Source of the DNA: Pseudidiomarina aquimaris
GTDB taxonomy: Bacteria; Pseudomonadota; Gammaproteobacteria; Enterobacterales; Alteromonadaceae
Assembly (NCBI RefSeq): GCF_003987395.1
Contig: NZ_PIPT01000008.1
Span: 1-64,000, forward strand
Direction: 5' to 3'
Length of the DNA stretch: 64,000 bases
Shown: in pieces, positions 9,864 to 58,566 of the stretch
Layout of the letters: each line of letters starts with the position of its first letter
Position numbering within the stretch: position 1 is the first letter of the stretch
Notes under the pieces: generated by a model
What the model was told of the DNA's origin: nothing
Database searches by the model: none
The model's input: the letters and a program-made list of their open reading frames with translations, nothing else
Program-made: the position numbers and the translations under genes

Positions 9864-9929
9864 ACGAGCGTGTCAGCCGTAGAGGACGAGTGTGCCAGCC
9901 GTAGGAGAAGAGTGTGCCATCGATAGGAG
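9864..9929 (+). repeat. 22-bp tandem repeat carrying ribosome-site-like AGGAG
   Basis: Three consecutive 22-bp units (9864-9885, 9886-9907, 9908-9929) of the form ACGAGTGTGCCAGCCGTAGG. Each carries AGAGG or AGGAG near its end, and the GTG start of the downstream gene lies in the third unit. Copy number changes would move or duplicate the translation-initiation region. Confidence 0.75.
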
Positions 9930-11413
9930 AAGTCATTCATCACGGCGCCTTTAATGGCGTTACCGGTTCGTGCCACGAGCTCTTCCTGAGCGCCAACGAC
10001 TCGGTGCTAATCGATTGTGGCTTGTTCCAGGGCGAAGAAGCTGCTGGTTCTGGGTCTTCGGGTTCTTTTGAATCGTCTGGGTCGGCCGGTGCTCCAGAAA
10101 TTGGGTTTTCGTTAGCCAATGTCCGCGCGCTTATCGTCACCCATTGCCACATTGACCACGTCGGTCGTATCCCTTATTTATTAATCGCCGGCTTTCGCGG
10201 GCCAATTTACTGCACTCGCGCCACCGCAATGTTGCTCCCGTTAGTCATCGAGGACGCCTTGCGTTTAGGACTCACCCGCGACAAGGCCTTGATTGCCTCG
10301 GTATTGGAGCTTTTGCAGTCTTTGTTAGTGCCGGTTGAATATGATGCGTGGACTGATTTGACGAAGCTAATCGGGGCGGATAGTGGTGCTGGGGCTGCTG
10401 GTGCTGTTGGCAAGAATGGTCCGGCATCGCTGCGACTGAGATTACGTCAGGCCGGGCATATATTAGGTTCCGCCTATGCTGAATTTGACTGGCCCGAACG
10501 TAGCAAAGCACTTGCGGCGACAAACACGACTGACAACACCCCTGCCGACGCCGCGAAAGCTGACAGTTACCGCATCGTCTTTTCTGGTGACATCGGCTGC
10601 CGAAATACGCCATTACTACCCGACCCTACCCCCTTAGAGCGCGCCGACGTACTCTATTTGGAAAGCACTTATGGCGACCGCCTGCATGAATCGCGCGCCG
10701 ATCGCGAAGAACGCTTACGAGGTGTCATCGAACACTGCGTTGCCGACGGCGGGGCCGTATTAATTCCAGCTTTCAGTATCGGTCGCACGCAAGAATTGTT
10801 GTACGAGATCGAAGACATCATCGCCACACACGGTAGCTTTTGGCCCAAGATCACCGTCATCTTGGACTCGCCCATGGCAACCGCATTTACCAAGCTCTAC
10901 CAACAACTGAACGACCATTGGGACGCCGAAGCACTAGCGCGTAACCTTGCAGGTCGTAACCCGCTCGACTTCAGTCGTTTGCACGTTGTTGAAAGCCACG
11001 CCGACCATGAACATATCGTGAACTTCCTACGCACCTCAGGAGAACCCTGCATCGTCATTGCAGCAAGTGGCATGTGCGCCGGCGGTCGCATGGTGAATTA
11101 TTTACAAGCTCTTCTACCCGACCCGCGCACCGACGTCGTCTTTGTCGGCTACCAAGCCGAGGGTACCCCGGGCCGCGACATCCAGCGCTATGGCCCAGAA
11201 GGCGGCTACGTCGAACTCGAAGGCGAGCGCATTACCATCCGCGCCGGCGTTCACACCCTCGGCGGCTACTCCGCCCACGCCGACCAAGCCGAACTCCTCG
11301 ACTTCGTCCTGCAAGCCTCACATATCGGCCGCGTACGCCTTATTCACGGCGCTCCCAGCGCTCAACGCGCACTCACCCACGCACTCCGCCAACACCACAT
11401 CACCACCCCCTAA
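9914..11413 (+). CDS. Beta-CASP metallo-beta-lactamase-fold hydrolase (RNA-processing type)
   Basis: Predicted zinc-dependent nuclease of the CPSF73/Ysh1-like group. The metal motif HCHIDHVGR, the GHILGSA motif, FSGDIG and the beta-CASP motifs YLESTYGDR, SGMCAGGR and GGYSAHADQ are all present in order over 499 residues. The GTG start at 9914 is used because AGGAG precedes it and the conserved EVIHHGAFNGVTG follows within nine residues. Two Gly/Ser/Ala-rich insertions (about residues 38-58 and 155-175) interrupt the metallo-beta-lactamase half and are not typical of the family. The RNA target is unknown. Confidence 0.88.
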   Translation: MPSIGEVIHHGAFNGVTGSCHELFLSANDSVLIDCGLFQGEEAAGSGSSGSFESSGSAGAPEIGFSLANVRALIVTHCHIDHVGRIPYLLIAGFRGPIYCTRATAMLLPLVIEDALRLGLTRDKALIASVLELLQSLLVPVEYDAWTDLTKLIGADSGAGAAGAVGKNGPASLRLRLRQAGHILGSAYAEFDWPERSKALAATNTTDNTPADAAKADSYRIVFSGDIGCRNTPLLPDPTPLERADVLYLESTYGDRLHESRADREERLRGVIEHCVADGGAVLIPAFSIGRTQELLYEIEDIIATHGSFWPKITVILDSPMATAFTKLYQQLNDHWDAEALARNLAGRNPLDFSRLHVVESHADHEHIVNFLRTSGEPCIVIAASGMCAGGRMVNYLQALLPDPRTDVVFVGYQAEGTPGRDIQRYGPEGGYVELEGERITIRAGVHTLGGYSAHADQAELLDFVLQASHIGRVRLIHGAPSAQRALTHALRQHHITTP

Positions 11414-11428
11414 CCCCTTTAGCACCTA

Positions 11429-11509
11429 GGGCAGACGTCCCCCCACCCCCACTTGCATTAGAGAGGGCAGCCCTCCCTTCTGACACAGTTTTGCTATTGA
11501 CCTCTGCCC
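11429..11509 (+). repeat. REP1 element, full, overlaps EamA 3' end
   Basis: Arm GGGCAGACGT at 11429, core GAGAGGGCAGCCCTCCC at 11461-11477, and arm ACCTCTGCCC at 11500-11509. It encodes the last codons (EGRGQ) and the stop of the EamA gene. Confidence 0.9.
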
Positions 11510-13360: not shown

Positions 13361-13441
13361 GGGCAGAGGTCCCCGCCTCCCTGCTGGCATGAGAGAGGGC
13401 AGCCCTCTCTCATGCTACGGCTTTCGGAGTGACCTCTGCCC
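13361..13441 (+). repeat. REP1 element, full, canonical
   Basis: 81 bp: GGGCAGAGGT (13361), a perfect 29-bp central palindrome (13387-13415, GCATGAGAGAGGG plus mirror), and ACCTCTGCCC (13432-13441). It fills the gap between the convergent lysR and asnA genes and ends on the base before the asnA stop codon. Confidence 0.95.
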
Positions 13442-15008: not shown

Positions 15009-15090
15009 GGGCAGACGTCCGCATCACCGCCCCTGCATAAGAGAGGGCAGCCCTCCCTTTTGCAAGGCTTTGCTAGACTCACCTCTGAGC
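15009..15090 (+). repeat. REP1 element upstream of the RAYT gene
   Basis: GGGCAGACGT (15009), core GAGAGGGCAGCCCTCCC (15041-15057) and degenerate right arm ACCTCTGAGC (15081-15090). It ends 17 bp before the RAYT start and just upstream of its AAGGAGGTG ribosome site. Its core orientation is opposite to the copy at 15778-15858. Confidence 0.9.
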
Positions 15091-15107
15091 CAACAAGGAG
15101 GTGCTCT

Positions 15108-15806
15108 ATGCCGAATCAGAAACGAAATGATATACCGGGAATAGCCTTACACATCACCCAGCGAGGCAACAATCGACAGCTAATGTTTCGGGAAAACGAG
15201 GATTATCAACGCTTTGCAGGGATGTTGATTAAGTACTCAGAAAAATATCAAGTCATCGTTCATGCTTGGATGTTGATGCCGAATCACATCCATCTGTTAG
15301 TCACCCCACAAGAAAAAAATATGGTTGGCCGCATGATGATGTGTGTAACTGGAGCGTACACCAAATTCTATAATCAAAAGTACAAGCGCACCGGTACACT
15401 TTATGAAAAGCGCTATTACTCAGCTCTTGTCGATTACGATGAATACGTGATTAACGTCTATCGCTACATCGAGTTAAACCCCGTCAAAGCACGACTTGTG
15501 CAGCACCCAGGGTACTGGCATTGGAGTTCGTATCGACACAATGCTGAGGGGCTTGAGTCCTCTATGCTTGTGCCACATTTATCGTTCATGAAGCTAGGTT
15601 TGACGATCGAGGACTGTCGTAATGCCTATCAGAAGTTGGTTAACGATACTGACGTCACAAGTGAAGACTATGAGTTCTTACGACATGAAATCCGAACTGC
15701 ACAAAAGAAAAACTTCGCCTTCGGTGGTGAAGAATTTAAGAAGGAAATGGGTGCGAAGCTGGGCCTAGATGGCGAAGGGGCAGAGGTCGAGGCGACCGAG
15801 GTATGA
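15108..15806 (+). CDS. REP-associated tyrosine transposase (RAYT, Y1_Tnp type)
   Basis: Single-strand HUH-type nuclease related to IS200/IS605 TnpA, 232 residues. The HUH metal motif is MPNHIHLLV (His60 and His62). The downstream VYRYIELNPVKARLV carries the candidate catalytic Tyr (118 or 120). The N-terminus GIALHITQRGNNRQ is typical of the group. The ATG at 15108 is preferred because AAGGAGG lies directly upstream. A REP1 element ends just before the gene, and another in inverse orientation encodes its last residues (GAEVEATEV). This bracketed arrangement is expected for a RAYT that acts on its own REP family. Confidence 0.92.
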   Translation: MPNQKRNDIPGIALHITQRGNNRQLMFRENEDYQRFAGMLIKYSEKYQVIVHAWMLMPNHIHLLVTPQEKNMVGRMMMCVTGAYTKFYNQKYKRTGTLYEKRYYSALVDYDEYVINVYRYIELNPVKARLVQHPGYWHWSSYRHNAEGLESSMLVPHLSFMKLGLTIEDCRNAYQKLVNDTDVTSEDYEFLRHEIRTAQKKNFAFGGEEFKKEMGAKLGLDGEGAEVEATEV

Positions 15807-15858
15807 GAAGAGAGGGCTGCCCTCTCTCATGCAAGGCGTTTGATGCAAACCTCTGCCC
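15778..15858 (-). repeat. REP1 element overlapping the RAYT 3' end
   Basis: 81 bp: GGGCAGAGGT (15778), core AGAGGGCTGCCCTCTC, and ACCTCTGCCC (15849-15858). The core is GGGCTGCCC, the inverse of the upstream copy. It includes the last nine RAYT codons and stop, and ends eight bases before the galE stop. Confidence 0.95.
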
Positions 15859-16925: not shown

Positions 16926-17007
16926 GGGCAGAGGTAGTAATTATACAGACTTACATGAGGGAGGGCAGCCCTCTCTTATACACACAAAACCTTGCATACC
17001 TCTGCCC
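16926..17007 (+). repeat. REP1 element between galE and the methyltransferase
   Basis: GGGCAGAGGT (16926), core GGAGGGCAGCCCTCTC and ACCTCTGCCC (16998-17007). Unlike most copies it lies between two divergent starts, 48 bp upstream of galE and 42 bp upstream of the methyltransferase. Confidence 0.92.
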
Positions 17008-17049
17008 CATCGCCTAAAAATAAACAAAATAAACGGAGTTAAAACAAAA

Positions 17050-17787
17050 ATGACAAAAAGTTACACCGAACATTTTGAAGAAAGAGGAACGGCCTATGAG
17101 TGCGCCATGCGTCAGTTCCCACACGCAAGAGACGAAGAATTTCAGCAACTTATTCATGCAGCACAATTGAAAAGTGGTATGCGCGTCGCTGATGTTCCCG
17201 CAGGAGGTGGCTACCTGAAGCGCTACCTACCCAACGACACTCATTGGCTGGGCCATGAGCCATGCGAAAGCTTCACTAATCATGCGACATCAAACGGCGG
17301 TTCAGCCCCGCTTCTACCGCTGCCATGGCTCGACGCCTCTATCGACTGTGCGATGAGTTTAGCTGGCGTTCATCATTTATTAGATAAAAAACCTTTATTT
17401 AAAGAATTTGCTCGCATTTTGAAGCCCAAAGGCAAATTAATTATATCTGATGTCGAGGAAAACTCCCCCGTTGCCCTCTTCTTGGATCAGTTTGTCGGAG
17501 CTTATAACAGCACGGGGCACGAAGGCATTTATTTGAATAAACAAACTACCGAAGAAATTGCTGAACAAGACTTCGAGATCATTAAAACTGAGCGCATTAA
17601 CTTAGTATGGCGGCTTCCGACGAAACAGGATTTAGTCGTCTTCTGCAAACAACTATTTGACTTAAAAAATGCAAATGAAGAACAGGTAGCTCAAGCAATT
17701 GAAGACTATCTCGGTTTTCAATCTTTGGCTGACAATCAAATTGGCATGAATTGGCAACTCACTACTATTACGGCACAACGAAAATGA
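17050..17787 (+). CDS. Class I SAM-dependent methyltransferase
   Basis: Predicted methyltransferase of 245 residues. A degenerate SAM-binding loop VADVPAGGGYLKRYLP lies near residue 50, followed by SLAGVHHLLDKKP and FARILKPKGKLIISDVE, the post-I and post-III motifs of UbiE/MenG-like enzymes. The ATG at 17050 is chosen because GGAG lies upstream; a longer frame would translate the REP1 element. Its stop overlaps the ATP-grasp start by 4 bp (ATGA), so the two are translationally coupled and probably modify one product. Substrate unknown. Confidence 0.82.
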   Translation: MTKSYTEHFEERGTAYECAMRQFPHARDEEFQQLIHAAQLKSGMRVADVPAGGGYLKRYLPNDTHWLGHEPCESFTNHATSNGGSAPLLPLPWLDASIDCAMSLAGVHHLLDKKPLFKEFARILKPKGKLIISDVEENSPVALFLDQFVGAYNSTGHEGIYLNKQTTEEIAEQDFEIIKTERINLVWRLPTKQDLVVFCKQLFDLKNANEEQVAQAIEDYLGFQSLADNQIGMNWQLTTITAQRK

Positions 17788-19646
17788 CGCAAAAATCACT
17801 CATCGAATTTAGCCATCATCGCTACTTGCCAGGATATTTAAGAGGACGTCGACAACCCGGTTTGATTGTGTCGCTTAAACCATCTAGCGCTCTACTGAAT
17901 GGGTTAGCCAAGCCAGAAAAAAGTAGAGATTTGGCAAGGTTAGCAAACCAATTTAATGATTATTGCGGGACTGCAGAAAATCACGAAAATACTCCCTCAC
18001 AATACGATTGGCTTGCTCTTTTAAAGCAAATTGGAATCTGTACATCAAGCGTACTTCAATACTTCAAGTTTCCACAACTCGATAACCCTGAGATTCTTTT
18101 CGCGCCAACTTCGGATAAGTATCTGCAAAAACCAACGCAACTTCTGATAACAATCCCACATTGCGATCCTAGCCTTAATTTAAAAGCTTTAAAGTTAGTG
18201 CTTGATATCATTTCAGATGCACTGATTCGCGAAAACTTTGAATTACCGATTACTAAAATAAGCGACGTATTGTCAGACATCAAGAAGAACCTTAACTTCA
18301 GTGTTAATGCTCTATTTTTAAAAGCCGCGTACGATAACGAAATGCCCGTACTGGTATTAAATGGAGGTACCGTTCAATACGGTTTTGGTGCTCGCTCAGA
18401 ATGGTTTGAGCATACGTTTTCGATGCAAACGACCAATATTTCAGTGCGTATGGCGCGCGACAAAACTAAATGCAGCCTTCGCCTACAACAGGCTGGCCTC
18501 CCCGTCGCCCCCAATACTAAAGTACGTAGCACAGAAGAAGCACTCCAATTTGGAAAACACGTTGGTTTTCCGATCGTTATTAAACCAGCGAACCTTGATG
18601 GCGGAACCGCGGTCACCGCAAATTTATCGACCCCCAATGAGGTGCGTGCAGCGGTGCAAAAAGTGCAAAAGGTCTCGAAGCAAATTAGAGCCGAGAAGCA
18701 CATTATTGGACGAGACTATCGGCTCACGGTGCTTGATGGGCGCGTCGTGTGGGCGGTCGAACGCGTACCCGGTGGAGTCTTTGGCGATGGCGAGAATACC
18801 GTCGAGCAACTCATCGCCAAGGAAAACGAAACGCTTAATCGTCGTCAGGGACCCGCACAAACACTACAGCCTCTGACCTTAAACAATGAATCGATGTCAC
18901 TGTTGACAAAGCAAAAATTATCAAAAGATACCGTTCCAACCAAAGGTACATTTGTGCGGCTCAGTAGCATTGCCAATGTCGCAACCGGCGGTCGACCAGT
19001 GCCGGTCTTCGAGCAAGTACACCCCGACAATATAAAACTAGCTGAGCGAGCTGCCCGCGCCCTACGCCTTGATATAGCTGGTGTTGACATCTTGATCCGC
19101 GATATCACAAAGTCTTGGCGTGAAGTTGGTGGTGTGATTTGCGAGGTCAACGGACAACCTGATTTGGGCGCGACCACTGCCCTACATTTATACAGTGATG
19201 TACTGCGCTCACGCGTCGCCGGTACCGGACGCATCCCGATCATCGCCGTAGTTGGAGGCGCTAAAGCCGCCGCCCTTATTAAACGCGGTGTCGAGGCGAC
19301 TTCAGATGCCGTCAGCCTCGGCTGGATGAGTACCTCCGCCATTGGTATAGGTGATGCGGTTCTGCAAACCGGCAAGTTTAAAAGCTTTTCTGGCAGCCAA
19401 ATACTCCTGACTGACAATCAGGTCGAGGCACTAATCTTTCAGGTCTCAGGTGAAGATATTCTGCAAACGGGGTTACCTTCAGATCGCCTAGATCTCGTCA
19501 TCATAGCCGACGAAATCTCTCCCCCACCACTGCATCGAGAGATCGAGAAGTCACTCATTCCGGCCTGTTCAGGCGATGTTATTAGACTTGCTGGAGACGT
19601 TAGCGAGCAAACCGCCGTAGATTCGATAATGCGATTGTTGACTTAA
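17784..19646 (+). CDS. Cyanophycin-synthetase-like ATP-grasp ligase with degenerate Mur-like tail
   Basis: A 620-residue predicted amide-bond-forming enzyme. Residues about 150-480 resemble the CphA ATP-grasp region: NGGTVQYGFGAR, ARDKTKCSLRLQQAGLPVAP, VIKPANLDGGTAV, VPGGVFGDGENTVEQLI and the metal motif EVNGQPDLGA. The C-terminal part starts IPIIAVVGGAKAAAL where cyanophycin synthetases have a Mur-ligase P-loop (GTNGKTT), so the second ligase site seems lost. It overlaps the methyltransferase and ends directly on a REP1 element. It may ligate amino acids into a small methylated peptide; this is inference. I do not recognise a characterised homologue. Confidence 0.75.
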   Translation: MTQKSLIEFSHHRYLPGYLRGRRQPGLIVSLKPSSALLNGLAKPEKSRDLARLANQFNDYCGTAENHENTPSQYDWLALLKQIGICTSSVLQYFKFPQLDNPEILFAPTSDKYLQKPTQLLITIPHCDPSLNLKALKLVLDIISDALIRENFELPITKISDVLSDIKKNLNFSVNALFLKAAYDNEMPVLVLNGGTVQYGFGARSEWFEHTFSMQTTNISVRMARDKTKCSLRLQQAGLPVAPNTKVRSTEEALQFGKHVGFPIVIKPANLDGGTAVTANLSTPNEVRAAVQKVQKVSKQIRAEKHIIGRDYRLTVLDGRVVWAVERVPGGVFGDGENTVEQLIAKENETLNRRQGPAQTLQPLTLNNESMSLLTKQKLSKDTVPTKGTFVRLSSIANVATGGRPVPVFEQVHPDNIKLAERAARALRLDIAGVDILIRDITKSWREVGGVICEVNGQPDLGATTALHLYSDVLRSRVAGTGRIPIIAVVGGAKAAALIKRGVEATSDAVSLGWMSTSAIGIGDAVLQTGKFKSFSGSQILLTDNQVEALIFQVSGEDILQTGLPSDRLDLVIIADEISPPPLHREIEKSLIPACSGDVIRLAGDVSEQTAVDSIMRLLT

Positions 19647-19728
19647 GGGCAGAGGTAGGTGGCTTTCCATGTCGCGAAGGGAGGGCAGCCCTCCCTTCGC
19701 AACTTGCAAAAATGATGCACCTCTGGCT
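19647..19728 (+). repeat. REP1 element after the ATP-grasp gene
   Basis: GGGCAGAGGT (19647-19656) begins on the base after the stop codon. The core is AGGGAGGGCAGCCCTCCCT and the right arm is degenerate (ACCTCTGGCT, 19719-19728). Confidence 0.9.
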
Positions 19729-19912: not shown

Positions 19913-19993
19913 GGGCAGAGGTTGCTCATAAATAAGTACCATTAGAGAGGGCTGCCCTCCCTCGTGCTAGCCCATATGTAGCGACCTCTGCCC
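19913..19993 (-). repeat. REP1 element, full, inverse orientation
   Basis: GGGCAGAGGT (19913), core GAGAGGGCTGCCCTCCC and ACCTCTGCCC (19984-19993), 81 bp. It is free-standing in the long intergenic region. Confidence 0.93.
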
Positions 19994-20616: not shown

Positions 20617-20697
20617 GGGCAGAGGTTGGCACGCAAAGACTATGCACAGAGAGGGCTGACCTCTCTCATGCAAGGAGGAAATGAGAAACCTCAGCCC
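20617..20697 (-). repeat. REP1 element overlapping the gabT stop
   Basis: GGGCAGAGGT (20617), mutated core GAGAGGGCTGACCTCTCTC and degenerate arm ACCTCAGCCC (20688-20697). The gabT stop codon (20691-20693) and penultimate codons are within the arm. Confidence 0.88.
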
Positions 20698-23610: not shown

Positions 23611-24519
23611 ATGTCATGGTTGCAACGAGACCTAACCGACTTCGATCTCAAACTCTTGCAAGTTTTTCGCACCGTTGTGGAATGCGGAGGTTTTACCGCC
23701 GCTGAGACAGAGTTAGGCATCAGTCGCTCAACCATCAGCATCCACATGAGTAGTCTTGAAACACGCCTTGGCATGCGGCTATGCCAGCGTGGGCGACAGG
23801 GCTTTTCGCTGACTCGCGAAGGGCAAGCAGTGTTCAATGCACTACTCTCATTGAGCGAAGCGCACGAGGAATTTCGTCACCAAGTAGCCTCGATAAATCA
23901 AGATCTTAGTGGAGAGCTAGTGCTTCTAGCCGCGGATCAGCTTGACCCTCCAAGGCAGTTGCACATCGCCCAAGCGTTGCGCCGCATTAAGCAACAAGCA
24001 CCTGATTTACAGATTCATTTTGACTTGCTGCCGCTTCAGCAGATTGAACTCGCGTTGCTTAAGAACCAAGCGCACCTGGCGTTGATGCCTGGTTATCGAC
24101 GCATTGATGGTTTGGCATACGCGCATGCTTTCAGCACCCCGATTTATCTATGCTGCGGGGCCACGCACCCGCTGTTTGAGGTGGCAGATGACGCCCTAGA
24201 TATCGCACGTTTGGCGGAGTTCGAGACCGTGCATCCGGGCGTTAATATTAATCCGGAAGGCCGTAAGTTATTGCAAAAGTTGAAGACTTCTGGACGTGCC
24301 TACCAATTTGACAGTCGGTTGAGCATGATTTTGTCGGGCGCCTATTTAGGCTTCATGCCGAGCGCCATCAGCGCACCGTTTCTGGCACAGAGACAACTTC
24401 GCTACTTGCTGCCTGAGACCTTTAACTACCCATTTGAGCAATTTTATGTGAGTCGGAAGCAGCCACGCGAACCAGAAAAGGTAACGCTTGCGCTCGAAGC
24501 ACTGCAGGGAGAAAACTAA
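23611..24519 (+). CDS. LysR-family regulator beside gabDT
   Basis: 302-residue LysR regulator. The N-terminal winged helix (FDLKLLQVFRTVVECGG, then GISRSTISIHMSSLETRLG) is followed by a substrate-binding effector domain. The ATG at 23611 fits the usual LysR N-terminal length; an in-frame ATG at 23539 would add 24 atypical residues. It is divergent from gabD across about 120 bp, so control of GABA catabolism is likely but unproven. Its stop is followed after one base by the serine hydrolase start. Confidence 0.88.
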   Translation: MSWLQRDLTDFDLKLLQVFRTVVECGGFTAAETELGISRSTISIHMSSLETRLGMRLCQRGRQGFSLTREGQAVFNALLSLSEAHEEFRHQVASINQDLSGELVLLAADQLDPPRQLHIAQALRRIKQQAPDLQIHFDLLPLQQIELALLKNQAHLALMPGYRRIDGLAYAHAFSTPIYLCCGATHPLFEVADDALDIARLAEFETVHPGVNINPEGRKLLQKLKTSGRAYQFDSRLSMILSGAYLGFMPSAISAPFLAQRQLRYLLPETFNYPFEQFYVSRKQPREPEKVTLALEALQGEN

Positions 24520-24520
24520 T

Positions 24521-25909
24521 ATGTGGCTTATCGCATCCGCCGTTTTAACCCTCACGTTTCAATTTGAACATGCGGATATTCCTGATGCTGAGGTACAAGT
24601 TCTGGAGCTTGCCGACAGCGGGCAGAGGTTACCGCTGAATCCTGGCTTCAGCGGAGGGCAGCCCTACTCCTTTGCCCTCACTCCCTCCGCCACCTCGCAA
24701 GAAATCCACTTTGCCTTGCGCGAGTACAACGCCAACTGCATCCACAACGGCGTCATCGACTTACCGCAACCGTTCACGCAAACCCCATTTACCATCAGCG
24801 CAACATTCCGCATCACCCAGAACACTTGCGCTTACGCCACCTTCGCCACCGCAGGGCAGACCTCCGTCACCATCACCGCTAGCAAAGAGAGGGCAGCCCT
24901 CCCTAATGCAAGCAAAAACACGCTGACCTACGAGCCGCTGGGGCGATCTCTCAAGCATGCGCCATGGGCGCCGCAGCCGCCGCAGGCCCAGCCTACGGTC
25001 TATGGGTGGTCGCGAATCACCAATGATCAGCAATTCGAGCACTATTCATCCAACACGCACATCGCGGTACCGGCATATTCGTTAAGCAAAACATTCATTA
25101 CCACAGCGACAGCTCTACTTTATCGCAATCAGTATCAGTCGGACCTTTTGCAATTGTCGCTAGATACCTGGGGGGATATTTGCCCACAAAATACATGGCA
25201 AAGTGTCACACTCATCGACGCACTGAATATGCAAACGGGCCATTATGCATCTAAGCAACATGGCCAAGACGAAGCTTCAGCCGCAATGATCGAGAACTTC
25301 TTTGAGGCAACAACGCATCAAGAGAAAATCGCCCACGCCTGCAGCTATCCTGAGCGCGAACAGCGAAATGTTGTCTACCAAACCTCAGCAACCTACCTTG
25401 CTGCGACCGCACTACAGAACCTTTTAAGTACAGAGCAAAACACCCGGCTCGATACCTTTCTTTACAACGGCCTTTGGAACGAGCTCAAGCTTAGCCCACT
25501 GGCGTATAGTATCGACACCACCAAGGACGACAAGCGCCAGGTCTGGGGTGGCTACGGCCTGACTCTACTTCCGACCGACCTAGTGAAACTTGCACATTTT
25601 GTGCAACAAGATCCGCTAAAACTTGGCTTCGAAGAAATTCTTGAGAACCCGGAAACAGCCTGCCCAATCCCAAACACGCCCAACCTCCGCTATCGCCAGA
25701 GCATCTGGTTTTGGCAGCATCCTGAAACGCAAAAATGGTATCCGTTTCTCAGCGGCTATGGCGGCATCATCGTACTTTTTCTCGATGACCAGCACATCTA
25801 CTACATGGTCAGCGATCAGCATGATCATCGCTTCAAAAGCGTCATCGATAGCTTCGAAAACTATCAACGTCAGCGTACAGCGCCCAGAGCTAGCTCACCC
25901 GGAGAGTAG
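24521..25909 (+). CDS. Serine hydrolase of beta-lactamase/PBP-like fold
   Basis: 462-residue predicted exported hydrolase. A hydrophobic signal-like N-terminus (MWLIASAVLTLTFQF) leads into an unassigned 150-residue N-terminal region. The class C-like domain then has SLSK (Ser-x-x-Lys nucleophile motif in AYSLSKTF), YQTS as the candidate Tyr motif, and SGYGG near the C-terminus. The N-terminal region contains two in-frame REP1 elements, and a third encodes the last residues (RASSPGE) and stop. The start follows the LysR stop by one base. Substrate unknown. Confidence 0.78.
   Translation: MWLIASAVLTLTFQFEHADIPDAEVQVLELADSGQRLPLNPGFSGGQPYSFALTPSATSQEIHFALREYNANCIHNGVIDLPQPFTQTPFTISATFRITQNTCAYATFATAGQTSVTITASKERAALPNASKNTLTYEPLGRSLKHAPWAPQPPQAQPTVYGWSRITNDQQFEHYSSNTHIAVPAYSLSKTFITTATALLYRNQYQSDLLQLSLDTWGDICPQNTWQSVTLIDALNMQTGHYASKQHGQDEASAAMIENFFEATTHQEKIAHACSYPEREQRNVVYQTSATYLAATALQNLLSTEQNTRLDTFLYNGLWNELKLSPLAYSIDTTKDDKRQVWGGYGLTLLPTDLVKLAHFVQQDPLKLGFEEILENPETACPIPNTPNLRYRQSIWFWQHPETQKWYPFLSGYGGIIVLFLDDQHIYYMVSDQHDHRFKSVIDSFENYQRQRTAPRASSPGE
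24620..24701 (+). repeat. Degenerate REP1 element inside the serine hydrolase (1)
   Basis: GGGCAGAGGT (24620-24629), core GGAGGGCAGCCCTACTCC (24653-24670) and degenerate right arm ACCTCGCAAG (24692-24701) at the normal spacing. It is translated as part of the N-terminal domain. Confidence 0.75.
24854..24935 (+). repeat. REP1 element inside the serine hydrolase (2)
   Basis: GGGCAGACCT (24854-24863), core GAGAGGGCAGCCCTCCCT (24887-24904) and degenerate right arm ACCTACGAGC (24926-24935). It is translated in frame as TSVTITASKERAALPNAS and neighbouring residues. Confidence 0.85.
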
Positions 25910-25962
25910 CAAAGAGAGGGCTGCCCTCTCTTATGCAAGCAGAAATGCGTGGACGTCGGCCC
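25882..25962 (-). repeat. REP1 element carrying the serine hydrolase stop
   Basis: Degenerate left arm GCCCAGAGCT (25882), core GAGAGGGCTGCCCTCTC (25914-25930) and degenerate right arm ACGTCGGCCC. The hydrolase stop codon lies at 25907-25909 within it. Confidence 0.8.
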
Positions 25963-32685: not shown

Positions 32686-34099
32686 TGCTTTGAAGGCTCG
32701 TGAGGCTTTGAAGGCTGGTGAACTTGCTAACGCCGCGCTTCGGGAAACCGAGCGCGGCGCTTATGCTTCTGCCCTCAAACTTTATGCCTCGGCGGCGGCG
32801 TTGGCGCCGTCAGACGCTGACTTACTCTTTAACTACGCTTCGTTGGCGCGCATCACAGGTTCGTTGCCGCTGGCCGAGTCATTGTTGACGCGGGTTGTGG
32901 CCTTGCGCCCTGGGGATTCTGCTGCGTGGTTGCTGTTAAGCGGGTTGCGCCGCTGGAGCGCTGGCGATAATCATGTTGCTTCGATGCGACGAGTGCTGGC
33001 TGAGATTGCTGGGTCTTCGGCTGGGTCTGGGGTTGGGGTTGGGGCTTCGGCTGGGTCTTCGGTTGGGTCTTCGGCTGGTTTGGGGTCGGGGTCGGGGTCT
33101 GGGTCTGGGTCGGGGTCTGGGTCGGGGTCGCCGCGGCAACGGGTTGAGTTGCTTTATGCGCTCGCCAAAGAGTGCGAAGACATCGAAGACTACGACGCCG
33201 CGCGCGACTATTTGCAGCAAGGCGCCGCTCTGCGCCGCAAGCACTTGCGTTATGACGTACGCGACGACGTTACAACGATGGCGGCATTGCGAGATTTGGT
33301 GGACGAACTGGCGGGGTCGCGCGCAGCATCTGCTTCAGCTTCTGCGGCGACGGAAACTGGACCGACCCCAATCTTCATCGTTAGCCTGCCGCGCGCGGGG
33401 TCGACGCTGTTGGAGCGCATGCTCAGCACCGACTCAGGCATTGAGACCGCCGGCGAATTGCCGTTTTTCCCGCAGTTACTTGGCCGCGCATTGCAGCAGG
33501 CATATATCGCCCGCAACGGCAAACTTGCACGTCCGAAGTCCAAAGCAGAACTCGTCACTTACGCCACCGAACTCGACTGGCCACAAATCGGACGTGACTA
33601 CCTACAAATGCTGCGGCAAGCAGGCCATGGTGACGCACCGTACGTTATCGACAAAATGCCTTTGAACCTTCTCAACATCGGCTTTTTACGGCGCGCCTTG
33701 CCGCAAGCGCGCATCATATACTTGCAGCGCGACCCTGACGACCACGCCCTCGCGCTCTACAAGCACCTATTCAACGAAGCCTATCCATGGTCGTACGACT
33801 TAACCGAGATTAGCGCCTACACTGACGCCGCCCGCAGCCTCTGCACCGCCGCCAGCGCGGAGCCCACCAACCACATCTTCACCCTAAGCTACGAAGACCT
33901 AGTACAGAAACCTCAGAGGTCGCTACGCAACCTCATCGACTACTGCAGCATTGACTGGAGTGACGGGGCCTACGAGCGCGCTTTGCAGTTCAATGAGAGT
34001 AATAAAAATGCCTCTACCACCGGCAGCGCCAGCCAGGTCCGAAACGCCCTGCACGCCCGCTCCATCGGCCTCGCCGCCAAATACCACCTGTTTGACTAG
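32675..34099 (+). CDS. TPR-sulfotransferase fusion
   Basis: 474 residues from a TTG start overlapping the receptor stop by 11 bp; a second TTG 15 bases later is also possible. The N-terminal part (about 1-180) has TPR-like helices (ALKLYASAAALAPSDADLLFNYASL). They are interrupted by a long Gly/Ser linker encoded by near-tandem GGGTCT/GGGTCG repeats (33010-33130). The C-terminal part is a PAPS-dependent sulfotransferase, with the 5' phosphosulfate loop in SLPRAGSTLLERML and the 3' phosphate-binding Arg in YLQRDPDDHALALY. The stop codon lies in a REP1 palindrome. TonB receptors paired with such proteins are known in marine bacteria; the target is unknown. Confidence 0.85.
   Translation: MAGDALKAREALKAGELANAALRETERGAYASALKLYASAAALAPSDADLLFNYASLARITGSLPLAESLLTRVVALRPGDSAAWLLLSGLRRWSAGDNHVASMRRVLAEIAGSSAGSGVGVGASAGSSVGSSAGLGSGSGSGSGSGSGSGSPRQRVELLYALAKECEDIEDYDAARDYLQQGAALRRKHLRYDVRDDVTTMAALRDLVDELAGSRAASASASAATETGPTPIFIVSLPRAGSTLLERMLSTDSGIETAGELPFFPQLLGRALQQAYIARNGKLARPKSKAELVTYATELDWPQIGRDYLQMLRQAGHGDAPYVIDKMPLNLLNIGFLRRALPQARIIYLQRDPDDHALALYKHLFNEAYPWSYDLTEISAYTDAARSLCTAASAEPTNHIFTLSYEDLVQKPQRSLRNLIDYCSIDWSDGAYERALQFNESNKNASTTGSASQVRNALHARSIGLAAKYHLFD
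33010..33130 (+). repeat. GGGTCT/GGGTCG microsatellite encoding a Gly-Ser linker
   Basis: A 120-bp purine-rich simple repeat within the sulfotransferase gene, encoding alternating Gly and Ser/Ala. Its register is a multiple of three, so copy-number changes would keep the frame and alter linker length. Confidence 0.85.
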
Positions 34100-34153
34100 C
34101 ATGAGAGAGGGCAGCCCTCTCTCATGCTAGCCGGAAAGACGGGACCTCTGCCC
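34096..34153 (+). repeat. REP1 element (core and right arm) at sulfotransferase stop
   Basis: A perfect 35-bp palindrome at 34096-34130 (CTAGCATGAGAGAGGG plus mirror) contains the sulfotransferase TAG stop. The right arm ACCTCTGCCC is at 34144-34153. No left arm is seen. Confidence 0.88.
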
Positions 34154-34165
34154 CACGAGGTGCTG

Positions 34166-35812
34166 TTAGTATTCGGCTTGTTCAGGAATGAGGATATTCA
34201 ATGCGCGAGGCTGCAGTGAAATACGGATCTCTGTATCAGCATATATTTCGCCGTCGACGGCAAATTTTAGCTCTGCGCCATCCGCACGTCGCACCCTAAC
34301 TGAAGTTGCTTGTGTATGCCCCGTGTTCACACCGAGATTGTCTTCGGTCATTCCGGCATACAGTAACTCCATCAAACTCAGTACGTTTTTCTCTCCCGAG
34401 TCTTTAGGTTCCAGCCAGGTCAGATCTAGCTTGCCATCGTCCATCATCGGATTACCTCTGCCCTGCGCTAAAAGCGTGGTAATTGGGGCCGCATTTGCCA
34501 CTATCAAACTACTCGTGCGCCAGCTCTCGAACGGACCATCGTCGAGCGCGACTTCAAACTCTAACACCTCGTTTTCATTGACCGCTTGCCACAACGCCTG
34601 CAAGTACGCGAATTGGCCTAGCTTATCTTTCGCCTCGCGATCGGCCTTAGAGATCATCCGCTCCTCAAAGCCCACCGCAGCGCAGAGCAACATCGGCTTA
34701 TCGTTTACCAGCCCAACATCGACCGCGTGGCATCGCCCCTCGATAACCGTGGTACAGGCGGCCGACACCGGCGATAGTTTCGAGCTCAATCCCCACAGAG
34801 CTTGGCTCAGAGAGTTCGCTGTTCCCATCGGAATCATCGCCATCACCGCGTCGGTATTGCGCAGCGCGCTGGCAACCTCGGTAAGCGTACCGTCACCACC
34901 CACCGCAATCAGCAGCTTAGCACCATGTTCCATTGCCTCTTCAGCTCGCTTTGTAGCGTTAATTTCTGGCGTAGTTTCAAGAACATGGTTATTAAAATAG
35001 GGAGCTAGGAAGTCAAGCACTTCGGCTTTCGCCTTCTTCCATTTGCCGCCGCCAGAGACCGGATTTGCGATGATCCAAACATCCTTCGCCAGCAGCAGTT
35101 TATTATCTTTGGCAAAGCGCTCAAGTGCTTGTTCCTGCATGCTATTTAGCCGCGCAATCGAGCGTTCACCCTGTATCGAGTGCAGCACCTCTGCCACCTC
35201 AGACGCCTCGGTCCGCATCAACAGGTACGCAGCCACGACAAACACCGAGCGGCCGCGGCCTAACGCGCAATGCACCAGCACTTTGCGCCCCTCATCATGC
35301 TGATGCTGAATCCACTGCAGCGCTTCATGGATCTGATGATCCGATGGCGCAACATGATCCAGAACCGGCAAATTCAAATACACCATTTCGGCCTCTTCCG
35401 AAGCCCAATCTAGCGCATCAAACTCGGCGGTCACATCCAAAATTGCACCAATACCTTGCTCTTTCAACGCCTCCACATCCGACGCAAACAGTCGACGCCC
35501 GACGTACAAGCCATCGGCAACCTCATGCCACGCGGCTACATTGTCACGCCGGCGCGCCAACCAGTTATAGACACTGACGCCCGCGAGAAACGGGTACAAC
35601 AGCCAGCGAATGTAAATCGGGATCTTGCCACCTTGACGCTTGCGGAACACCCCTGCCAAATTAAACCAATAAGCCGCTGACACCATCGCCAGCGCCAAAA
35701 AGCACCAAAATAACAACGCCTTAATTATCCAGTGCTGTGCGAATATCGCCGCAAATAACGCCACCAAAGCGCCAGCTAAATAAGCCGTCGGAACCACCGG
35801 GCGGATGTGCAT
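34166..35812 (-). CDS. Dual-specificity phosphatase fused to diacylglycerol-kinase-like lipid kinase
   Basis: 548-residue membrane protein. Two to three N-terminal helices precede a dual-specificity phosphatase domain with HCALGRGRS (Cys-x5-Arg active site) near residue 185. A DAGK/YegS-type kinase domain follows, with the nucleotide loop VGGDGTLTEV and SLSQALWG downstream. It may couple lipid phosphorylation with dephosphorylation of lipid or protein. The ATG at 35812 is used because AAGGAG lies seven bases upstream. The longer frame to 35926 would translate a REP1 element (residues such as VEREGSPLS), so that extension is probably not made. Confidence 0.85.
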   Translation of the reverse strand: MHIRPVVPTAYLAGALVALFAAIFAQHWIIKALLFWCFLALAMVSAAYWFNLAGVFRKRQGGKIPIYIRWLLYPFLAGVSVYNWLARRRDNVAAWHEVADGLYVGRRLFASDVEALKEQGIGAILDVTAEFDALDWASEEAEMVYLNLPVLDHVAPSDHQIHEALQWIQHQHDEGRKVLVHCALGRGRSVFVVAAYLLMRTEASEVAEVLHSIQGERSIARLNSMQEQALERFAKDNKLLLAKDVWIIANPVSGGGKWKKAKAEVLDFLAPYFNNHVLETTPEINATKRAEEAMEHGAKLLIAVGGDGTLTEVASALRNTDAVMAMIPMGTANSLSQALWGLSSKLSPVSAACTTVIEGRCHAVDVGLVNDKPMLLCAAVGFEERMISKADREAKDKLGQFAYLQALWQAVNENEVLEFEVALDDGPFESWRTSSLIVANAAPITTLLAQGRGNPMMDDGKLDLTWLEPKDSGEKNVLSLMELLYAGMTEDNLGVNTGHTQATSVRVRRADGAELKFAVDGEIYADTEIRISLQPRALNILIPEQAEY

Positions 35813-35879
35813 AAACAACTCCTTGCATGAGAGAGGGCTGCCCTCCCTTTCTACCACAAAAACGCGATGACCTCTGCCC
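35799..35879 (-). repeat. REP1 element over the 5' end of the phosphatase-kinase gene
   Basis: Degenerate left arm GGGCGGATGT (35799), core AGAGAGGGCTGCCCTCCC and right arm ACCTCTGCCC (35870-35879). The gene's ATG and its AAGGAG ribosome site lie in the element's left half, so the repeat supplies translation signals. Confidence 0.8.
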
Positions 35880-35942: not shown

Positions 35943-36137
35943 ATGGCGGCAAATATGGCAAACCGAACGACAAACCGCGCGAATCGTCTCCGCTATAAAC
36001 TTATCTACATGGCGATCATCTCAGCGCCATTGGTGTTTCATCTACTGCTGGTTGGCGGCGGGACTCTCCTCTCCTCTGCTCAGCCATCCGCCGCCACCAG
36101 CAGTGATGTCTCAAAATCAACGCCTGGTAAGAGCTAG
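35943..36137 (+). CDS. Small single-pass membrane protein, possibly iron-regulated
   Basis: 64-residue protein with a basic N-terminus (NRTTNRANRLRYK), one strong membrane helix (IYMAIISAPLVFHLLLVGGG) and a Ser/Thr-rich tail. I do not recognise the family. The start could also be 35889, which would cover the Fur-box-like site, so 35943 is preferred. Its TAG stop overlaps the first base of a REP1 element by one base, the pattern seen after real genes in this window. The Fur-type operator suggests a role in iron-limited growth; that is inference. Confidence 0.5.
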   Translation: MAANMANRTTNRANRLRYKLIYMAIISAPLVFHLLLVGGGTLLSSAQPSAATSSDVSKSTPGKS

Positions 36138-36190
36138 GGCAGAGGTCAGCCGTTCGCAAGTAGCATGAGAGAGGGCAGCCCTCCCTCATG
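36137..36190 (+). repeat. REP1 element (left arm and core)
   Basis: GGGCAGAGGT (36137-36146) and core GCATGAGAGAGGGCAGCCCT with mirror (36163-36190). The expected right arm near 36208 is not recognisable. Confidence 0.85.
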
Positions 36191-36277
36191 CGAGCGACGC
36201 TGGCGTTGCCGAAAGCGCACACTCACGCTAAAGTAAAGCACACAAAAACAACAACAACGGAAGTTCAAAAGTACAAA

Positions 36278-37825
36278 ATGGAAAGTAAAAAACCGAATTA
36301 TTTCGTCCGCCATTGGCGCGGCGAGCTCCCGTTGTCCGTGTCGTTTTGGGGCAACGTTGTTTTCCTAAATCTGCTGATAACCATGATTTCGCGCATCACC
36401 ACATTCGGCGGATTCCTTGACGGAATTAGATGGCAAACCGCGCAAATTGTCGTTCTTAGCCTCATTCTTTTCGCAGTTATCATCGGCGTCTGGCAAATCG
36501 TCGGCACTTGGCGCAGCGCCACGAGCTATCGCGCCAAAGGTGGAAGCCCCGTCATCACTGGCATCGTCAAGTTACTCATGGCATTCGGCGTACTCTCACT
36601 TATCGGTAACCTCGGCATCGCCATCGAAGACTTCAACCTGCGCACCGAAAACGCAAAAAACCAAGATTTCGACGTTTACGTCAGCGAAAATGGCTACGAA
36701 CTCGTGATCACCGGCGAAATCGGCGTCACCATTTCAGATAGCGTCGTTGCACAGCTCGAGCAACATAAAGCCATTGACACCCTAGTACTCAACAGTCACG
36801 GCGGCGATCTCAACGAAACATTTCGTATCATTAATGCCCTCAAAAACTATCGCAACGACGAACATAAAATTACCACCTACGTCGACGAACATTGCGCCTC
36901 GGCATGCAGTATTTTGTTCATCAGCGGCGACACACGCATCCTCGCGAAAGGCGCCCAGCTTGGCTTTCACCAGTTGCAGTCCTACGCCACAGCCGATCCC
37001 GACACCTCCAATATCGAGCGCTTACAACGTAAAGTGAGGAACTACTTTCAGTTGCAGGGTGTCAGCCCCAGCTTTTTGCGCGATATGTATCAAGCCGCAC
37101 CGGATGACATGTGGTACCCGGAAGAAGAGCTATTGCTGACAAGTAATGTGGTCCATCACCTAGTCGAACGTGAAAGCATGGTCCCGACCTCTGCCCCAAC
37201 AGCACAACCAAGCGCGGCCCAAGGTGCCGAAACGGAAAGCCAGCTCGATGTTGTAGCGCTTATACGCAACATTTCGCCAGCCCAATACGAAGAACTTGAA
37301 CGTCAGCTTGAAAGCATCCCAAACGACGCCAACCACACACAAAACGCCGAATTAACAATAAGCAACTTTGTCAGCAACCTAAAACTGGAGTCCCTGCGAC
37401 GCGTTGATGACCAATTATTGCTGGAGGTCATCGAGAACGAAACCGCCCTCTACAACCAGTTAGCCGAACACGCTCCCGATTTATGTATGCAAACCTTGTA
37501 CCCAGGCGAGTATGGCTACCCCGACTACGAGCGCGTCATGCGCTATCAAGACGATGCGTTATTTGCCGAAGAAATTACACGTATTTTCGAGCAAGGCTTG
37601 CGGCAAGGGTTACCCACCATCGACTACGAGATGGCGTACGCAGATCTCGACCATGTCTTGGCAACAATCAACCAAGACATTACCGCCCTCGACGCATTCG
37701 AACCCTCCAACGAAGGTTACCGACTGCACTGTCAGTCCATCGCACATTTCTACGCGTACCTCGCCAAGGCCTTGCCAGACGCGCGCGCCGCGAATTTAGT
37801 ACGCTATTTAATCGAGCCGGAGTAA
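36278..37825 (+). CDS. Membrane protein with ClpP/crotonase-like domain (COG3904-like)
   Basis: 515 residues from MESKKPNYF. Earlier in-frame codons translate REP1 sequence. Three membrane helices (about 25-125) precede a ClpP-like fold with LVLNSHGGDLNE, the candidate serine nucleophile in DEHCASACSILF and histidine in LGFHQL. A Ser/Thr/Ala-rich linker (37187 region, TSAPTAQPSAAQ) leads to a helical C-terminal domain of about 170 residues that is clearly related to the lipoprotein at 53695-54429 (shared pattern DYE..Y.DLD near its middle and L.Y....P.AR.ANL.RY at the end). Proteolytic activity is not proven. Stop and REP1 element overlap. Confidence 0.72.
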   Translation: MESKKPNYFVRHWRGELPLSVSFWGNVVFLNLLITMISRITTFGGFLDGIRWQTAQIVVLSLILFAVIIGVWQIVGTWRSATSYRAKGGSPVITGIVKLLMAFGVLSLIGNLGIAIEDFNLRTENAKNQDFDVYVSENGYELVITGEIGVTISDSVVAQLEQHKAIDTLVLNSHGGDLNETFRIINALKNYRNDEHKITTYVDEHCASACSILFISGDTRILAKGAQLGFHQLQSYATADPDTSNIERLQRKVRNYFQLQGVSPSFLRDMYQAAPDDMWYPEEELLLTSNVVHHLVERESMVPTSAPTAQPSAAQGAETESQLDVVALIRNISPAQYEELERQLESIPNDANHTQNAELTISNFVSNLKLESLRRVDDQLLLEVIENETALYNQLAEHAPDLCMQTLYPGEYGYPDYERVMRYQDDALFAEEITRIFEQGLRQGLPTIDYEMAYADLDHVLATINQDITALDAFEPSNEGYRLHCQSIAHFYAYLAKALPDARAANLVRYLIEPE

Positions 37826-37897
37826 CCCCCAAAATTTCTCTAACATGAGGGAGGGCTGCCCTCTCTCATGCTAGCGGAAATGCGCGGACCTCTGCCC
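37817..37897 (-). repeat. REP1 element after the ClpP-like gene
   Basis: The core ATGAGGGAGGGCTGCCCTCT (from 37845) and the right arm ACCTCTGCCC (37888-37897) are clear. The left arm at the expected place (37817) is barely recognisable and holds the gene's stop codon. Confidence 0.82.
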
Positions 37898-53608: not shown

Positions 53609-53627
53609 AGAGAGGGCAGCCCTCCCT
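53609..53627 (+). repeat. REP1 core without recognisable arms
   Basis: AGAGAGGGCAGCCCTCCCT at 53609-53627, 68 bp before the lipoprotein start. It is one of two places (with 58546) where an ACCTCTGC arm precedes, rather than follows, a core. Confidence 0.7.
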
Positions 53628-58545: not shown

Positions 58546-58566
58546 GAGGGAGGGCTGCCCTCCCTT
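58546..58566 (-). repeat. REP1 core after the channel gene
   Basis: GAGGGAGGGCTGCCCTCCCT, with inverse core orientation, nine bases beyond the stop of the channel gene. No arms are recognised at the normal distance. Confidence 0.75.

Follow-up and report, generated by a model that had tools for sequence, protein, structure and literature searches.

The window analysed in this study, a stretch of 64,000 nucleotides (64 kb) on the Pseudidiomarina aquimaris contig NZ_PIPT01000008.1 (C21 in our numbering) of a 2.80-Mb genome, carries on its plus strand a gene for a Y1 HUH transposase of the RAYT/TIRYT type (15108..15806, 232 amino acids and a stop codon), as judged by Pfam, conserved residues and an AlphaFold2 model. 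RAYTs are tyrosine transposases associated with repetitive extragenic palindromes (REPs), and this one lies between two copies of a palindromic element, REP1, at 15009..15089 and 15778..15858. We found that the RAYT is real and has a TIRtron-like repeat family of its own, and that the density of this family forms a gradient centred on the RAYT gene. The gradient is the new point; it was lacking in the preliminary description of the stretch, and we consider it more interesting than the claims made there. Among the neighbouring genes, the names AsnC, metallo-beta-lactamase (MBL)-fold, EamA transporter, LysR, AsnA, galE-like epimerase, methyltransferase, ATP-grasp, diacylglycerol (DAG)-kinase-like, CysQ-like and CysNC-like are based on Pfam, and all other gene names were judged by eye from the translations.

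The open reading frame (ORF) of the RAYT spans 15060-15806, and the ATG at 15108, with AAGGAGGT immediately 5' of it, is the likely start. The protein matched Pfam Y1_Tnp (PF01797) with an E-value of 1.9e-14 and scored 74.6 bits against NCBIfam REP_Tyr_transpos, slightly below the cut-off of 80. Its HIH motif occupies residues 60-62 and the tyrosine is Y120 in YIELNP; H60, H62, Y120, N124 and P125 were unchanged in all of the 14 aligned relatives, which bears out the Y1/HUH-type RAYT with HIH and Tyr motifs that had been proposed earlier. Residues Y120-IEL-NP provide the pattern Y---NP, given as the class-2 signature in PMC6006769. The AlphaFold2 model had a mean predicted local distance difference test score (pLDDT) of 90.6, and its best match among solved structures was 4er8, the E. 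coli RAYT on a REP hairpin, with a Foldseek E-value of 1.5e-8. The match had a Z of 16.9 and a root-mean-square deviation of 2.5 over 159 residues; the VIA-align comparison barely probes residues beyond about 178. The C-terminal part of the model forms helices at 167-180, 186-200 and 208-217, and no helix-turn-helix (HTH) family was found in the Pfam lists up to E 10 for 14 members. A search of the whole genome found one match to a Y1 transposase.

REP1 consists of the arm GGGCAGAGGT, about 24 nt of spacer, a palindrome centred on GAGGGCWGCCCTC, another 24 nt or so, and the arm ACCTCTGCCC. The arms and core are conserved and the spacers variable; full copies measure 81-82 bp, and their arms repeat each other exactly in inverted form at a distance of 61 bp, which agrees with the earlier outline of an element of about 81 bp with outer arms and a central palindrome. 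The window contains 18 matches to GAGGGCWGCCCTC at one mismatch or fewer, 16 of them exact, when shuffled sequences lead one to expect 0.05, and 33 matches to the arm GGGCAGAGGT at the same tolerance (2.9 expected). Because the core at 13581 is armless (5/10 and 5/10) and lies within asnA, we count 17 elements, and the earlier figure of about 18 related copies over 11-58 kb stands. Both arms occur in nine elements, namely eight that score at least 8/10 on each side and the one at 20617-20697. In the whole genome there are 28 exact cores, 16 of which fall within the window. Arms of at least 8/10 at the usual spacing were present on both sides of 8 of the 18 window cores (AGGGCWGCCCT) and of none of the 16 copies elsewhere (RGGGCWGCCCY), three of which had one such arm and a fourth an exact arm further out. 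In single-stranded DNA (ssDNA) folding of six elements, four gave z-scores of -3.25 to -6.24, and those at 11429-11509 (z -1.26) and 15009-15089 (z -1.12) showed no clear difference from shuffles.

The upstream flanking copy has the left arm GGGCAGACGT, the core and the right arm ACCTCTGAG, and ends 18 nt 5' of the start codon. The downstream copy has exact arms and overlaps the stop of the RAYT together with its last eight codons and a portion of the ninth, so that the earlier statement that one flanking REP1 encodes the C-terminus of the protein was correct. The RAYT of the congener G002 has a similar layout, ending in RAEVE encoded through the same arm, and in G006 (L003) and G004 (L004) the MBL-fold gene takes its C-terminal codons from an element. 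The repeats thus rewrite gene 3' ends, that of the RAYT here and those of the MBL-fold genes in G006 and G004. The two flanking copies had been described as lying in opposite orientation; the bracketing holds and the orientation does not, since they match in 45 of 81 positions when compared directly and in 46 of 81 when one is inverted. REP1 is nearly dyad-symmetric, and the copies therefore have no definable relative orientation.

The exact inverted repeats at the ends of full copies are what one would expect if REP1 were a miniature inverted-repeat transposable element (MITE) of a DDE transposon with GGGCAGAGGT as its terminal inverted repeats. We regard such an origin as hardly credible. 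No target-site duplication was found in eight elements, in which the longest direct repeat was 2 bp, and the arms are not general, as most of the relatives' elements lack them and have the core in common; moreover, the elements bracket a Y1 gene.

For the comparison within the genus we used 26 Pseudidiomarina genomes in the sense of GTDB, our own (G000) and 25 congeners; cores were merged into loci at distances of 200 bp or less and compared with a uniform expectation. In the own genome 15 of 33 loci lie within 25 kb of the RAYT, when 0.48 were expected. The same excess was found in the five congeners with a close RAYT: 11 of 40 loci in G013 (0.66 expected), 9 of 20 in G002 (0.38), 14 of 26 in G025 (0.59), 9 of 27 in G004 (0.54) and 12 of 47 in G006 (0.90, based on 90 of its 95 core positions). 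It persisted in all six genomes after removal of the innermost 1.5 kb around the RAYT, with P values from 2e-16 to 9e-6. A second type of RAYT, 38% identical and associated with a different element head, GGGTGCAGACC, is present in G012, G017 and G019, where 14 of 29, 13 of 28 and 13 of 27 loci, respectively, were within 25 kb (0.56, 0.58 and 0.55 expected). In G049, a 4.0-Mb genome of another family, all 10 loci and all 19 copies lie within 14 kb of its RAYT. Pooled over these ten genomes, with G039 and G053 left out, the density fell from 0.85 loci per kb at 0-2 kb, a bin that is biased because the motifs were derived from the RAYT flanks, through 0.38, 0.35, 0.12, 0.073 and 0.045 to 0.012 at 80-160 kb, compared with 0.0046 in the rest of the genome. 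The slope of this decay on a log-log scale was -0.86.

As a control, we counted REP loci in E. coli K-12 with the motif TTATC[AC]GGC, which we take to be that of its REPs, and found six in the 50 kb around rayT and three in one other 50-kb stretch; with a single comparison stretch, this control is weak. The REPs of P. fluorescens SBW25 are reported to show no departure from random beyond 200 bp (PMC3116915) and most REP families to be spread throughout the genome (PMC3733652). Among the matches listed from the open-access PMC literature, judged by titles and the starts of abstracts, we found no report of a RAYT-centred density gradient, and the matches listed for the motif GGGGTCAGAG contained nothing on RAYT repeats.

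Within the genus, the occurrence of the repeats followed that of the RAYT. Six of the 26 genomes have a close RAYT, 50-100% identical to our own, and in all six the gene is flanked by palindromes built around the core GGGCWGCCC, on both sides in five of them and on the 5' side alone in G013. The wider motif RGGGCWGCCCY was counted 34 times in G000 and 27, 60, 95, 59 and 63 times in G002, G004, G006, G013 and G025, respectively. The 20 genomes without a close RAYT comprise 14 without any match at E<=1e-10 and six with a RAYT of 37-38% identity; 19 of them had 0-6 copies and one, G003, had 64 (for G014, G015 and G016, which have a second-type RAYT, the counts of 1, 2 and 1 for GGGCWGCCC cover that motif only). 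More than six copies were therefore found in 6/6 genomes with and 1/20 without a close RAYT (Fisher P 3e-5, with a copy-number cut set after the counts were known). The exact REP1 core is present 28 times in the own genome, once or twice in six of the 25 congeners and not at all in 19. These results support the view that the RAYT and REP1 belong together within the genus, as the preliminary description had supposed from their proximity. It had named an equal abundance of REP1 in relatives without any RAYT as the outcome that would speak against this; exact cores numbered 28 in the own genome and 0-2 in each of the 25 congeners, and of the wider family the RAYT-less G003 carries 64 copies.

The arms of the elements add to this link. 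Sites resembling GGGCAGAGGT were found 26 times in 64 kb of the own genome and 12 times in 39 kb of G002, and 0-2 times in the other mapped RAYT regions; in the RAYT tree these two genomes group together as sisters with a support of 99/99. The stems are less regular. The five bases most common before GGGC are AGAGA in G000, AGAGG in G002 and G004, AGAAA in G006 and G013, and AGGAG and others in G003 and G025. A stem of its own for each genome, tracking the RAYT tree, is a weakened idea, since two non-sister pairs share their commonest stem. As far as the sequences indicate, the arms match the RAYT tree better than the stems do, and the stems appear to follow it loosely and in part. Spacing also differs: cores are often 37-38 nt apart in G002, G004, G006 and G013 and 21-26 nt apart in G025, and our own elements have one core and two arms, with the GGGCAG of the arm about 37 nt from the core centre.

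The nearest known kind of system is the TIRtron with its TIRYT. As in TIRtrons, a RAYT-like Y1 gene is flanked by non-GTAG repeats, one of which overlaps the 3' end of the gene; the flanks at 15009-15089 and 15778-15858 are inverted in the sense of symmetric arms and core, and the family is moderately abundant, with copies that are single, paired or grouped. According to Di Nocera et al. 2013 (PMC3733652), a GGGGWSAS-class motif is typical of a majority, not all, of TIRtrons and TIRYTs, and Quentin et al. 2018 (PMC6006769) place most TIRYTs in subclass 2.1. In relatives from other genera we found inverted repeats such as GGGGTCAGAGT, often GGGWCAG-like. A rough scan of 80 named loci, which used exact 12-base arms and reached up to 10 kb on each side, detected an arm pair at 34, with GGGG[TA]CAG in 10 of these, a fit to GGGGWSAS in 11 and GGG[TA]CA[GC] in 23. 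Unlike this pattern, our own arm, GGGCAGAGGT / GGGGCAGA, is not an exact fit to GGGGWSAS and the core between the arms is strongly palindromic; Pfam gave no curated HTH domain for the C-terminal part of the protein, and the density drops with distance from the gene, which was not seen for TIRtrons in the literature portions that we drew on. We file the system as TIRtron-like, not as a proven member of subclass 2.1, because the arm misfits GGGGWSAS and Pfam shows no HTH.

With the REPtrons and REPIN-RAYT systems of E. coli, Pseudomonas and Stenotrophomonas it shares the HUH Y1 enzyme with Y---NP, the flanking palindromes, dozens of copies, sites at gene 3' ends, one repeat family per RAYT and possibly, in the relatives, paired cores at a fixed spacing; a family that is multicopy (28 exact cores genome-wide) and lies beside the gene would also suit a GTAG REPtron. 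However, none of the hairpins has a GTAG foot; GTAG or CTAC occurs in four of eight elements, at differing places and off the foot, so that REP1 does differ from GTAG-headed REPs as first described. The residues that contact GTAG are not conserved either: in a hidden Markov model alignment to 4er8 (E 5.8e-7, alignment alone) Y stands at W94, E at Q95 and V at R104, the three positions (E. coli numbering) that contact GTAG according to PMC6006769. Our elements are built as arm-core-arm and not as two GTAG hairpins, and they cluster at the RAYT instead of spreading genome-wide. The GTAG-less foot, the differing contact residues and the GGGWCAG-like repeats of relatives argue against a classical GTAG REPtron, so that of the REPtron first suggested only the RAYT-REP1 link stands, with its 6/6 versus 1/20 distribution and its arms mainly in our genome and G002. 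Elements of the IS200/IS605 family (IS608, ISDra2) resemble the system in their Y1 HUH fold (Z 8.4-10.1) and hairpin ends, and differ from it in that the RAYT is present here in a single copy per genome, with asnC and galE by Pfam, not tnpB, as neighbours.

A second palindromic family in the window, GTAGCCCG...CGGGCTAC, is GTAG-headed and of the classical REP type. It occurs at 124, 2119, 2199, 54450, 59231, 60550, 60647, 63504 and 63601, and at several places in G008 (L129 ~17660-19350). This family looks orphaned, because the genome search found only the one TIRYT-like RAYT. Four congeners have weak second Y1 matches (G011 C1:571535, G012 C9:392655, G007 C1:199923 and G019 C4:40454; E about 2e-4 to 8e-4) in open frames of 193-206 amino acids, and these are possibly another RAYT type that could serve GTAG repeats.

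The account that we hold, with moderate confidence, is that of a TIRtron-like RAYT system in which a Y1/HUH enzyme of the TIRYT branch disperses or rewrites its own non-GTAG elements mainly at short range. In its favour are the bracketing of the RAYT by elements in five of the six genomes with a close RAYT, the joint occurrence of RAYT and repeat family, the distribution of the arms, the gradient in ten genomes, the two-armed copies in the window (8 of 18 cores, compared with 0 of 16 copies elsewhere) and the similarity of the fold to the E. coli RAYT on its hairpin. The gradient suggests that, with an enzyme of this kind, most of the spreading of repeats happens near its gene. The RAYT would recognise the element as folded ssDNA, with the central palindrome as the hairpin, and the arm GGGCAGAGGT, about 24 nt from the hairpin foot, would be the likely cleavage or guide region in this lineage. 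The enzyme would then cut and rejoin single strands, probably in the lagging-strand template, and copies would re-insert near the donor or replace existing copies. We infer the binding, the cleavage, the role of the arm, the lagging-strand targeting and a causal part of the enzyme in the proximity of the copies. A more daring form of this idea, tentative and in our judgement doubtful, is that the reach of dispersal or rewriting falls roughly as 1/distance, that a relocating RAYT seeds a new cloud and leaves a fossil behind, and, at its boldest, that the blocks between elements move too, as an HUH analogue of gene cassettes. If this were true, the 1/distance reach could stem from chromosomal contact or from the shared single strands of replication forks.

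Several observations weigh against the short-range account. G039 and G053, with three copies each, show no clustering apart from the RAYT itself. In the scan of 80 named loci, many local copies were found only at L022 (which is G025; 46) and L064 (10), and the remaining 32 arm-pair loci had 0-3. L064 is a contig of a metagenome-assembled genome of the Geobacteraceae, with ten local GGGGACACTCAA-like copies around a distant RAYT relative, and is possibly a further instance of a local cloud. The ten genomes of the gradient are not independent, since G012 and G019 have RAYTs with 97% identity and nine genomes belong to one genus. The absence of target-site duplications points in the same direction, as do the stem types shared by G002 with G004 and by G006 with G013, which are at odds with the RAYT tree. 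G003 has no RAYT at E<=0.1 and yet 64 family copies, in a tight cluster around the MBL-fold gene. Its elements have the run TTACAATGTAAAGATGG in common with those of G004, and this would fit the loss of a G004-like RAYT; with so many copies in a RAYT-less genome, either such a loss or independence of the RAYT must be allowed.

Further difficulties arise from the positions of the clusters. The RAYT resides near one MBL-fold gene (locus A) in G000, G002, G004, G006 and G013, and between genes F38 and F39 (locus B) in G012, G019 and G025. The five RAYTs at locus A form one clade (98/96), and the next branch in the group, G025, is at B; because the A clade nests in a group with G025 at B, a single move from B to A is the simplest reading, and the RAYT probably moved once in this direction, to judge from the tree. 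In genomes with both loci mapped, the one that holds the RAYT had the denser cluster. However, G012, G017 and G019 have clusters of 5, 4 and 5 loci, respectively, within 10 kb of the MBL-fold gene (about 0.23 expected in each), and G025 also has a secondary cluster near that gene, although the RAYT of these genomes is 37-53 kb away or on another contig. These clusters, together with G003, rule out that the RAYT alone explains every cluster. They may be fossils of earlier RAYT homes or may mark a regional hot spot. Elements were also found far from the RAYT in the gaps F30|F31 and F32|F33 of G002, G003, G006 and G013, and in the gap F73|F28 of G002, G004 and G013. The cores in these gaps are mostly, not always, of the usual type of each genome, with A/T beside the core in G013 and G006 and G/C in G002, G003 and G004. 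The gaps were noticed post hoc in stretches chosen for clusters and not for orthology. Because they are common to species and far from the RAYT, part of the pattern is inherited position, and inherited position with partial concerted replacement of the sequence is the simplest reading.

These observations lead to an alternative in which the RAYT and the elements both gather where the genome is hypervariable and tolerates insertions, in a small number of regions around the MBL-fold gene and the F38-F83 gene run, and in which the RAYT is not the cause of the gradient; homogenisation within each genome, by gene conversion or replacement, would make the copies alike. Such hot spots are supported by the MBL-gene clusters where the RAYT sits elsewhere or, in G003, is missing, by turnover of gene content in the same region almost without elements, and by the element gaps shared between species. 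We regard this alternative as unlikely, but as a serious rival because of the secondary clusters near one gene and the G003 cluster without a RAYT. It would not lead one to expect 0-6 copies in 13 of the 14 congeners without a RAYT match, the densest cluster at the RAYT-holding locus wherever both were mapped, the confinement of all copies of G049 to the vicinity of its RAYT in another family and gene context, or a decay that continues steadily across a hundredfold range of distance.

The RAYT-less genomes also bear on the gene blocks between the elements. In G008 and G018, which are near-identical in the compared region and were counted once, asnC and galE are adjacent and the entire 15009-15858 unit is absent. 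Other blocks of the window missing from G008 likewise end in REP1, the extra blocks being the EamA transporter-LysR pair, the RAYT unit, the methyltransferase/ATP-grasp pair and a block of about 19.9-34.1 kb. It is conceivable that recombination takes place at the elements and that the blocks which they separate, each of one to a few genes, are inserted, deleted or moved by the RAYT or by some other enzyme; the elements would then be loosely comparable to attC sites, but with an HUH enzyme at work. In favour of such cassette boundaries, besides the REP1 copies at the block ends, the methyltransferase/ligase-like pair is flanked by arrays both at 16926-19727 of the window and at a second locus (G004 C3:222586-225380, G006 C6:225119-228141). 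However, the pair is only 43-50% identical between its two loci, the elements occupy most gene-end gaps so that block ends coincide with them anyway, and the one G008/G018 comparison provides a single count. Gene blocks also differ among G005, G008 and G018, which lack a RAYT and have few or no elements; this weakens the cassette idea, which we consider improbable and keep as a rival. From the MBL-fold gene to cysQ/D/N (9914-63514 of the window compared with G002-G025), gene content and order are hypervariable across the genus, and operon-sized modules are shared in different combinations.

The other REP1 copies of the window are distributed as follows. The element at 11429..11509 has both arms and adjoins the stop of the MBL-fold gene (9914-11413), and that at 13361..13441, right behind the asnA stop, has both arms exact and a single-strand fold of -28.2 kcal/mol (z -6.24). 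Exact arms on both sides are also found at 16926..17007 (82 bp) and 19913..19993. The copy at 19647..19727, right behind the stop of ORF 17751-19646, has an exact left arm and 8/10 of the right one; at 20617..20697 the core has one mismatch and the arms score 10/10 and 9/10. Three copies touch ORF 24488-25909: a partial one within it at 24620..24666 (left arm and one-mismatch core), a degenerate one within it at 24855..24935 and another degenerate one at its 3' end, 25882..25962. Half elements with core and right arm lie at 34073..34153, where the left arm is unrecognisable, and at 37817..37897, and one with left arm and core at 36137..36217. The element at 35799..35879 (left arm 8/10, right arm exact) is at the 5' end of the DAG-kinase-like gene, and the RAYT-less G008 has an element at the matching place. 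Core palindromes alone were found at 53612..53624 and 58550..58562.

Positions such as these raise the question of a host function, in which the repeats would be transcription terminators or 3' stabilisers of mRNA that merely happen to be near the RAYT. The hairpins lie at the 3' ends of genes and in many cases adjoin the stop codon, and 12 of the 18 window cores lie between ORFs, though a mechanical call assigns 90% of the window to ORFs. We consider a host function very improbable as an explanation, since it accounts neither for the gradient around the RAYT and the near-absence from congeners nor for copies inside genes, such as 21 of the 29 cores at C7:260-299 kb of G025, which fall within mechanical ORFs.

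Two cores elsewhere in the genome, L123 (C21:141340) and L124 (C22:27091), are contained in longer palindromes with arms unlike those of the other copies; these arms resemble TTATCCACA, which we take to be DnaA-box-like. A run of GCTGGGTCTTCG-like repeats at 33008-33133, in ORF 32675-34099, encodes a Gly/Ser-rich stretch, and the related gene in G006 has repeat elements inside.

The mechanism by which RAYTs spread REPs is called central but unresolved in PMC3116915, and dissemination mechanisms are described as poorly understood in PMC8266576. The gradient appeared in one genus with two different repeat families, and again in a bacterium of another family, and it makes dispersal measurable: one can ask whether it is short-range, and whether it is set by the single strands of replication forks, by chromosome contact or by a cis-acting protein. 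A non-GTAG system with several natural variants of RAYT and element would also be useful for studies of recognition.

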